A stretch of 58,508 nucleotides of DNA, from NCBI RefSeq assembly GCF_015552075.1, contig NZ_JADNDZ010000082.1, positions 1 through 58,508 on the forward strand. Direction: 5' to 3'. The notes under the pieces are model-generated. The model did not search any database. It saw nothing but the letters and a program-made list of their open reading frames with translations, and was not told where the DNA came from. This document shows, one piece after another, positions 30,566 to 40,677 of this stretch. The position numbers and the translations under genes were made by a program. The number at the start of each line of letters is the position of its first letter. The stretch's first letter is position 1. This DNA is from Collinsella aerofaciens (GTDB lineage Bacteria; Actinomycetota; Coriobacteriia; Coriobacteriales; Coriobacteriaceae).

Positions 30566-30603
30566 CACCATAAAGGGGACACTGTCCCCTTTATGGTGCT
30601 TTT
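30566..30603. repeat. Gene-end hairpin family D, copy 4
   Basis: CACCATAAAGGGGACA (30566-30581) and TGTCCCCTTTATGGTG (30583-30598) are perfect 16-nt complements around one base, followed by CTTTT. The usable stem is about 14 bp. It carries the family's GGGGACA/TGTCCCC core. Confidence 0.75.
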
Positions 30604-38103: not shown

Positions 38104-39024
38104 CTACTCCTCCCCCATGAGCTCGCCGGCGTTGCGGCGCAGCCACTCAAAGCACAGCGCCGTTGTCGCCTGGGCAACGTTGAGACTCTCGGTCATGCCG
38201 CGCTGGGGAAGCTTGGTCAAAAAGTCGCATTTCTCAAGCACCAGGCGCGAGATGCCATCGCCCTCGGAGCCCATGACGAGCGCCACGCGGCCCTCGAAGG
38301 GAGCATCCCAGCAGCTGCCCTCGGCGTGCTCGGAAGCACCGCCCACCCAAAAGCCAGCGGCCTTGAGGTCGTCGAGCGCACGGGCGATATTAGGAACCTG
38401 CGCGATAGGCAGGTGCATGACGGCGCCGGCAGAGGTCTTGTAGCTGCCGACGGTCACACCGGCGGCGCGCTTGTTGGCAATGATGACGCCTGCCGCGCCC
38501 ACGACCTCGGCGGAGCGCACGATGGCACCAAAGTTGCCGTCGTCGGTCACATGGTCGAGCACGATGACGAGCGCCGGACCGTCGCCCGCGCGGTCGAGAA
38601 TATCGGCGACATCGGCATAGGGGAAGTTGCCCACCTCGAGCGCAATGCCCTGGTGAGCGCCATGGCTCGATAGCGCATCGAGCTGCGCGCGCGGCACATA
38701 CTTAATGCGGACGCCCGCGGCGTTGAGGTCATCGACCAGACGAGACAGGGCGGCATCGCGCTCCCCGCCCTCGGCAATGAGCGCGCACTTGACGGGAAAG
38801 CCGGTACGCAGCGCCTCGGCGGCAGCACGGCGACCTTCGATAAACTCGCCCTTGGGGACCTGAACGTTGTCGCGGTTGCGATCTCGCTGCGGACGTGCAG
38901 CCTGAGCTTGGGAGCGCTCGCGCTGGCCCTTGGGAGCGGCAGTGCGGTCGTTGCGGCGACCCGGACGCGAGCCAGAAGCAGCCTGTTTGCCGCCACGAGG
39001 CGCACGCTTGCGATTGTCGGCCAT
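38104..39024 (-). CDS. rlmB: 23S rRNA (guanosine-2'-O-)-methyltransferase, TrmH/RlmB family
   Basis: A 306-residue SPOUT methyltransferase. A very basic, low-complexity N-terminal tail (about 1-60) precedes the substrate-binding domain (FIEGRRAAAEAL) and the knotted catalytic domain: LDHVTDDGNFGAIVRSAE, ALVMGSEGDGISRLV and LPQRGMTESLNVAQA. It 2'-O-methylates a G in 23S rRNA using SAM. AAGGAGG precedes the ATG. It follows cysS in the order cysS-rlmB-yacP, separated by a terminator-like hairpin and a structured segment. Confidence 0.93.
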   Translation of the reverse strand: MADNRKRAPRGGKQAASGSRPGRRNDRTAAPKGQRERSQAQAARPQRDRNRDNVQVPKGEFIEGRRAAAEALRTGFPVKCALIAEGGERDAALSRLVDDLNAAGVRIKYVPRAQLDALSSHGAHQGIALEVGNFPYADVADILDRAGDGPALVIVLDHVTDDGNFGAIVRSAEVVGAAGVIIANKRAAGVTVGSYKTSAGAVMHLPIAQVPNIARALDDLKAAGFWVGGASEHAEGSCWDAPFEGRVALVMGSEGDGISRLVLEKCDFLTKLPQRGMTESLNVAQATTALCFEWLRRNAGELMGEE

Positions 39025-39053: not shown

Positions 39054-39100
39054 CAAGACAAAAGAAGCGACCGCTTAAGACGAATAGCCCAAGCGGTCGG
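39054..39100 (-). terminator. Terminator-like hairpin between cysS and rlmB
   Basis: CGACCGCTT (39068-39076) and AAGCGGTCG (39091-39099) form a 9-bp stem; read leftward, CTTCTTTTGTCTT follows. It ends 30 bp before rlmB. Confidence 0.6.
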
Positions 39101-39103
39101 TAC

Positions 39104-39203
39104 GGGTTTTCCAAGTGCCCGAGATTGCCGTGAAAGAGGAGCGACGCGTACTTGAGTACGCGAGCGACGGTTTGAACGGCAAGGTCGGGCGCTTGGGAAA
39201 CCC
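39104..39203 (-). ncRNA. Candidate structured RNA (nested hairpins) downstream of cysS
   Basis: Outer arms of 28 nt (39104-39131 and 39176-39203) pair with only four mismatches, and an inner perfect 8-bp hairpin (CGCGTACT-TG-AGTACGCG, 39145-39162) sits at the tip. The element starts eight bases after the cysS stop and is followed by a terminator-like hairpin, as for a small RNA released from a 3' UTR. Family is unknown to me. Confidence 0.5.
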
Positions 39204-39210
39204 GAAGGGA

Positions 39211-40677
39211 TTAGAGAGTCTTAATACGGGTGCCCGCGGCAGTATCCTCGATCGTCAGGCCCAGGTCCTTGAGCTGATCGCGGATGGCATCTGCCAGATC
39301 CCAGTTCTTGGCGGCACGGGCCTCGGCGCGAGCCTCGAGAATCTTAGCAGCGGCCTCGTCCACGTCGTCGCCCGTGTAAGCAACCAAGCCGGCGGCAACG
39401 CCCAGCAGGCCCAGCGGCAACTCGACCTTGGGCTCGGGAAGCTCGACGCCAAACGTATCGAGCAGCTCGGCCAGCGTATCGGCGGCAGCCAGGACTGCGG
39501 CCTTGTCGGCAGCATCGCCCGCCTGCTCCAGATACTGATTGCACTCGGTGACAAAGCCAAAGACAGCACCCATGGCACCGGCGGTGTTAAAGTCGTCGTC
39601 CATGCACTCCTTAAAGGCGGCGCGGGTCTCGGCGGCCTTGGCGGCAAACGCCTCGGCGGCAGCCGCATCGGCATCGGCCGTCGCATGGTTCGCAGCCCAA
39701 CGAAGGTTCTCGACCGTACCGGCAATACGCGTGAGCGAATTCTCGGCACCCTCCAGGCGCTCCCAGGAGAAATCGAGCGGCGAGCGATAGCTCGTCTGCA
39801 GCATCAGCAGGCGCAGGGCCGCGGCAGAGTGCTGCTCGAGCACCTCGGCCAGCGTAAAGAAGTTTCCGAGCGACTTGGACATCTTCTCGCCGTCAACCAG
39901 CAGCATACCCGTGTGCATCCAGGTGTTGGAGAAGCCCTGGTGCCAGGCGCAGGTGGCCTGGGCGCACTCGTTCTCGTGATGCGGGAAGGCAAGGTCGGAG
40001 CCGCCGCCGTGAATGTCGATCGGGGTGCCCAGGTAGCGGTGCACCATGGCGGCGCACTCGGTGTGCCAACCGGGACGACCCTCGCCCCAAGGGCTCGGCC
40101 AGCTGGGCTCGCCGGGCTTGGCGGCCTTCCACAGGGCAAAGTCGAGCGGGTCGTTCTTGTCCTCGTTCTCCTCGATACGTGCACCAACCATAAGGTCATC
40201 GATGTTGCGGCCCGAGACCTGGCCATAGTTGGGATCGCTGCGCACGGCAAAGTACACGTCGCCGTTATCGGCGGCATAGGCATGGCCCTGCTCGATAAGC
40301 GTCTTGATCATGGCGATCATGGGGCCGATCTCCTTGGTGGCGCGGGGGCGCACATCGGGATCGAGCACGTTGGCAGCGCGCATGACGCCAATGAACTTAT
40401 CCGAGAACTCCGTTGCGACCTCGGCGGCCGTACGGCCCTGCTCGTTGGCGCGCTTGATGATCTTGTCGTCGACATCGGTGAGGTTCTGGGCGAACGTGAC
40501 CTCATAGCCGCTCGCGATGAGCCAACGACGAATCACATCGAAGCTGATGAACGTGCGGGCATTGCCGATGTGGATGTTGTCGTAGACCGTGGGGCCGCAC
40601 ACGTACATGCGGACCTTGCCGGACTCGATGGGCTGGAACTCTTCCTTTTTATGGGTAGCGCTGTTGTAGATACGCAT
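39211..40677 (-). CDS. cysS: Cysteine-tRNA ligase
   Basis: A 488-residue class Ia synthetase. The HIGH motif appears as DNIHIGNART, KMSKS as DGEKMSKSLGN, and zinc ligands in MYVCGPTVYD, WHTECAAM and FPHHENECAQ. It joins cysteine to tRNA-Cys. AAGGAG lies just upstream of the ATG, which is three bases after the ispF stop, so it is coupled to the isoprenoid genes. The ispD-ispF-cysS-rlmB-yacP order matches the conserved Gram-positive cluster. Confidence 0.97.
   Translation of the reverse strand: MRIYNSATHKKEEFQPIESGKVRMYVCGPTVYDNIHIGNARTFISFDVIRRWLIASGYEVTFAQNLTDVDDKIIKRANEQGRTAAEVATEFSDKFIGVMRAANVLDPDVRPRATKEIGPMIAMIKTLIEQGHAYAADNGDVYFAVRSDPNYGQVSGRNIDDLMVGARIEENEDKNDPLDFALWKAAKPGEPSWPSPWGEGRPGWHTECAAMVHRYLGTPIDIHGGGSDLAFPHHENECAQATCAWHQGFSNTWMHTGMLLVDGEKMSKSLGNFFTLAEVLEQHSAAALRLLMLQTSYRSPLDFSWERLEGAENSLTRIAGTVENLRWAANHATADADAAAAEAFAAKAAETRAAFKECMDDDFNTAGAMGAVFGFVTECNQYLEQAGDAADKAAVLAAADTLAELLDTFGVELPEPKVELPLGLLGVAAGLVAYTGDDVDEAAAKILEARAEARAAKNWDLADAIRDQLKDLGLTIEDTAAGTRIKTL

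Follow-up and report, generated by a model that had tools for sequence, protein, structure and literature searches.

The interrupted hairpin found behind cysS in the window (the whole stretch of DNA analysed, 58,508 nt) is a copy of a dispersed repeat of Collinsella and related bacteria of the gut, which is unnamed in the resources searched and is not specific for cysS. We consider it, with a probability of about 0.6, to be of mobile origin, a REP-like hairpin repeat that has settled at the 3' ends of genes and is co-transcribed there. Its copies are dispersed, conserve their fold by compensatory change, lie at gene 3' ends with a marked polarity, and are present, absent, inverted or replaced at orthologous sites.

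Structure and distribution of the repeat

A sequence-only reading of the window had described a candidate structured RNA in the cysS 3' region, with outer 28-nt arms containing four mismatches, a perfect inner hairpin of 8 bp and a terminator-like hairpin following the structure. The structured element was confirmed at 39103-39204, and the terminator-like hairpin does follow it on the cysS strand. The features of this site are as follows:

38104-39024, - strand: gene of an rlmB-like RNA methyltransferase, the next gene, on the same strand as cysS
39069-39098, - strand: terminator-like hairpin (GACCGCTT/AAGCGGTC), downstream of the repeat on the cysS strand
39103-39204, + strand (the better-folding strand): class I copy of the repeat, a 102-nt interrupted hairpin
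39103-39122, + strand: 5' arm of the outer 20-bp stem, with two G.U wobbles, partner 39185-39204 (fold and covariation)
39125-39131, + strand: 5' arm of the second, 7-bp stem, partner 39176-39182; a 2x2 purine loop lies between this stem and the outer one (fold and covariation)
39145-39162, + strand: apical hairpin CGCGTAC-TTGA-GTACGCG (fold)
39176-39182, + strand: 3' arm of the second stem (fold and covariation)
39185-39204, + strand: 3' arm of the outer stem (fold and covariation)
39211-40677, - strand: cysS, the host gene, with its stop codon at 39211-39213

The 28-nt arms (39104-39131 and 39176-39203) indeed contain four non-Watson-Crick positions; on the + strand these are two G.U wobbles and the two positions that form the 2x2 purine loop. 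The inner hairpin also exists, but 8 bp would leave a loop of 2 nt and the realistic form has 7 bp and a 4-nt loop. The structure begins 6-7 nt behind the cysS stop codon, and not eight bases after it. The + strand starts with an uninterrupted 20-bp stem, which the purine loop separates from the 7-bp stem; further inward are a conserved internal region and, at the apex, the 7-bp hairpin. The minimum free energy of this strand is -71.4 kcal/mol (z -9.35), as compared with -54.6 kcal/mol (z -8.87) for the - strand; none of the 200 shuffles matched the native value on either strand. The better-folding + strand is antisense to cysS, and the cysS transcript is thus not the first place in which to expect a structured RNA.

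BLAST analysis of the region against its own genome revealed 19 matches (76-100% identity). These copies were aligned and used to build a covariance model, whose search of the same genome returned 40 rows, some of them reverse-strand echoes of the same palindromes, which corresponds to approximately 30 distinct loci. The element was detected in (i) 39 of the 43 Collinsella genomes, with a maximum of about 38 matches per genome, (ii) 53 of the 65 genomes of the family Coriobacteriaceae, and (iii) 67 of the 197 genomes of Coriobacteriia, where the matches span three families. Among 84,980 species, the exact core motif occurred in 99 stretches, every one of them from Coriobacteriia (Collinsella, other Coriobacteriaceae, Olsenella, Thermophilibacter, other Atopobiaceae and Slackia). 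It was present in none of the viral contigs, and carriage by phages was rejected as far as this exact motif is concerned. In the literature we found nothing specific on Collinsella repeats.

The sequence-only reading had listed two outcomes as damaging to it, namely a lack of compensatory changes in homologues and a match to a known insertion repeat. The former was not observed, as 25 of the 36 pairs had changed on both sides. The latter applies in part, since the element does prove to be a dispersed repeat but has no name in the resources searched. The compensatory changes, which the reading had proposed to seek in the cysS-rlmB gap of related genomes, were found mostly across paralogous copies. 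Pairing was retained in 94.2% of the cells, versus 78.0% in shuffles and 28-42% with the arms slid, and the covariation score was 0.439, versus 0.150 in shuffles; both comparisons are to be read with the paralogy of most aligned copies in mind, and with the fact that template switching can self-correct palindromes. A putative structural constraint on the element is supported by these values. Covariation in a dispersed palindrome is not in itself evidence of a functional RNA.

A cmscan search against Rfam, the other computational check proposed, yielded only tRNAs and chance matches at both gathering and permissive thresholds, and no family fitted the element. The suggested identity with the Collinsella-1 RNA (RF01700) was rejected. 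Even at E=10 the RF01700 model did not match the element, and its sole match in the source genome is a different locus (G000:C70:70103-70299, 205.6 bits). This locus is the genuine Collinsella-1 RNA of the genome. The two are alike in being structured non-coding sequences of the same genus, but they differ in model and in number, since Collinsella-1 occupies one separate locus. What stands of the candidate RNA is its constrained structure; its identity with Collinsella-1, its specificity for cysS and its placement in the cysS transcript as the obvious reading do not. A coding repeat was also rejected: some copies have an open frame on the + strand (VPEIAVKEERR...), but single-base indels in the loops separate the copies.

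Position and orientation at gene ends

Positional analysis was carried out in a near-complete relative (G001, one contig of 2.43 Mb out of approximately 2.5 Mb), with gene positions from a simple purpose-written gene finder based on codon usage. Most of its 37 copies are located just 3' of a stop codon, and the few at larger distances may reflect gaps in gene calling. In 33 of the 37 copies the strand that folds better runs antisense to the flanking gene (p about 1e-6), while the remaining four lie 15-42 nt behind a gene of the same direction. No copy was placed between divergent genes (0 of 37), and each of the eight between convergent genes lay closer to the antisense one. Replication strand was rejected as the determinant of orientation, which it predicted less well than did gene direction (29/37 versus 33/37), with replichore boundaries estimated from sampled GC skew. 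Where the host gene is head-on, the orientation of the element followed the gene, and not the replichore, in five of six cases. The segment G001:C1, 0.48-0.93 Mb, contains zero copies, the three RAYT-like genes of this genome and one apparent switch of GC skew.

Two layouts were distinguished. Copies of class I start approximately 0-15 nt from the stop codon, as at cysS. Those of class II are flanked by CAGCGA and GCAGCGTC, carry a second small hairpin toward the stop codon and lie at a distance near 40 nt; their GCAGCGTC stands beside the hairpin, several nucleotides off the stem of the small one. A Slackia copy shows the class II layout, and class II therefore spans families. The host genes are diverse and have no common function (pheS, ileS, hisF, queA-like and amtB-like genes were recognized by eye from their C-termini). 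With copies behind dozens of unrelated genes, the element cannot be regarded as a cysS-specific RNA.

The strand preference recurs throughout the copies compared. In 77 distinct copies, the strand equivalent to the window + strand contained 180 G.U versus 22 A.C cells, or 52 versus 20 when fixed wobble columns were left out, counts that are biased in this direction by an alignment fitted to a model of the + strand. Predicted energies, which are independent of the alignment, were lower for this strand in 77 of the 77 copies, with RNA and DNA parameters alike.

Turnover and conservation at orthologous sites

The content of the cysS-rlmB gap varies. The copy of the window (V1) and a second one (V2) were each observed alone and also in combination, V2 in inverted form as well; elsewhere the gap contained two other copies or a hairpin unrelated to the repeat. 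In sister strains V2 takes the place of the terminator hairpin 39069-39098, with which it shares a GACCG..CGGTC stem. In L074 (G002), this gap is filled by an unrelated long hairpin that is unmatched by the model. Four other genomes lack one of the G001 copies at the corresponding site. In one comparison of an occupied and an empty site, CCACCNNAAAGG-like repeats were present on both sides, belonging to a neighbouring REP-like palindrome, and a target-site duplication, as expected of a TIR-bearing MITE, could not be clearly seen. At C58, a copy gives way in other strains to an element of different sequence or to simple hairpins. Some of the copies have a further recurrent palindromic repeat, CCACCACAAAGG..CCTTTGTGGTGG, in their vicinity (L104 near 7366, the L017 flank, and the window near 30577).

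Other copies are retained. The one between pheS and pheT persists across families, and displays compensatory differences among Collinsella, Olsenella and Thermophilibacter, which may reflect copy replacement at this site. Between strains, V1 differed by 1.4%, versus 14.5% at the 4-fold sites of cysS; two C58 copies differed by 6.7% versus 18.0%, and by 2.3% versus 17.5%. The low divergence at these three loci is suggestive of constraint, as judged against 4-fold sites and with intergenic flanks that, at C58, also looked conserved by eye. Retention of the pheS-pheT copy, together with this low divergence, could indicate function rather than mobility. A weak match (52.6 bits; L102, position 15159) recurs, seemingly in one and the same position, in each of the five genomes compared (L102, L113, L122, L132 and L142).

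These observations bear on the possibility that the element is a selected RNA of the 3'-UTR or intercistronic space, i.e. a hairpin of the host mRNA kept for stability, processing or attenuation, whose spread would be secondary. The fixed place and polarity behind stop codons, the pheS-pheT copy with its compensatory changes, and the divergence below that of 4-fold sites at three loci all point in this direction. However, the host-sense strand folds less well in every one of the 77 copies, close relatives have the element absent, inverted or replaced, no function is common to the host genes, and the low divergence is ambiguous in view of the conserved-looking flanks. We therefore regard this explanation as unlikely.

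Relation to known repeats and probable origin

REPs occur close behind the 3' ends of ORFs, between unidirectional or convergent genes, and contain G.T pairs in their stems (PMC3733652); they have been linked to TnpA-REP enzymes (PMC6006769). The palindromes of REPs and REPINs are 20-40 nt long and bear a GTAG or CGTC tag (PMC3733652, PMC6006769). The element is likewise a multi-copy, extragenic palindrome with G.T pairs, dispersed at gene 3' ends. It differs in (i) its length of approximately 102 nt, with internal loops, (ii) the hairpin base, where no GTAG or CGTC foot was recognized in the aligned copies, (iii) its absence, at 14 Y1/RAYT loci, from the flanks of RAYT genes, where the REPs of REPtrons lie, and (iv) its strong polarity relative to the host gene. 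The element is thus REP-like in its behaviour and location, but differs in size, foot and RAYT flanks, and we do not claim that it is a REP.

Could it nevertheless be the substrate of a RAYT (TnpA-REP), i.e. serve as the REP of a HUH transposase resident in the genome? Enzymes of this type use single-strand hairpins with wobbles as substrates, and the presence of RAYT and of the element was associated both in the set of 65 genomes (Fisher p=9e-5, Spearman 0.53) and outside the core cluster (p=0.0025), phylogeny being ignored in both cases. Against this, a search of the 14 Y1/RAYT loci with E values of up to 10 found no copy, one RAYT of the source genome carries inverted repeats of its own that are different, and some element-rich genomes of other families (e.g. 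G124 and G128) have no Y1_Tnp match, as is the case for genomes of another family with about 20 matches, which means that a resident Y1 enzyme is not needed for persistence of the element today. Dependence on RAYT was rejected, as the association seen in Coriobacteriaceae fails in other families, and a RAYT substrate is in our opinion improbable. In L032 (G000:C23:26000-31000), a RAYT-like gene lies between 51-nt inverted repeats (arms 1926-1976 and 2922-2972) carrying GGGGACAG, which resemble the terminal repeats (GGGGWSAS) reported for tyrosine transposases of the TIR-associated kind (PMC3733652).

In its length, intergenic location and imperfect palindromy, the element is similar, by description, to other repeats from different taxa. 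ERIC, RUP and similar repeats are intergenic imperfect palindromes of 100-130 bp. Integron attC sites are imperfect palindromes placed directly behind a stop codon, of which the strand antisense to the gene folds. The element shares this arrangement by analogy only, since attC sites are found in cassette arrays, whereas its copies are single and scattered behind chromosomal housekeeping genes, which argues against an attC or integron origin.

That the + strand yields a small RNA, antisense to the end of the gene, is very improbable: the better-folding strand has the appropriate orientation, but the upstream sequence varies from copy to copy and has no apparent conserved feature in class I. An ordinary intrinsic terminator, to which the G+C-rich stem and the location after a stop codon would conform, can be practically dismissed, because only 3 of the 77 copies show a U-tract, as counted from five or more T among the 8 nt that follow in host sense, the 102-nt structure is interrupted by conserved loops, and a separate terminator-like hairpin lies just downstream at cysS.

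According to the preferred reading, of a REP-like repeat of mobile origin, copies would arise by insertion of the hairpin into, or at, hairpins that already stand at 3' ends (terminators or REPs), probably via a folded single-strand intermediate processed by an enzyme, and would survive at gene ends as they may do little harm there. Co-transcribed with the upstream gene, the stable hairpin would probably form a 3'-end or intercistronic block (an exonuclease barrier or processing site), as has been described of REPs, and any effect on the transcript is inferred. More tentatively, and with more doubt than belief, we propose that the element, class-wide in its occurrence, is a marker of gene 3' ends with fixed polarity. 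It would fold as ssDNA on the strand antisense to its host gene, and an undescribed recombination system would insert it at stop-proximal hairpins, with some copies (e.g. pheS-pheT) having been domesticated.

The apparent cysS RNA is explained as a copy of this repeat, which adds to Coriobacteriia a long, well-folded repeat family of a kind that we did not find for this class in the sources searched. The sites at which it is present, absent, inverted or replaced provide a natural series for studying both the effect of a hairpin at the gene end and its movement.
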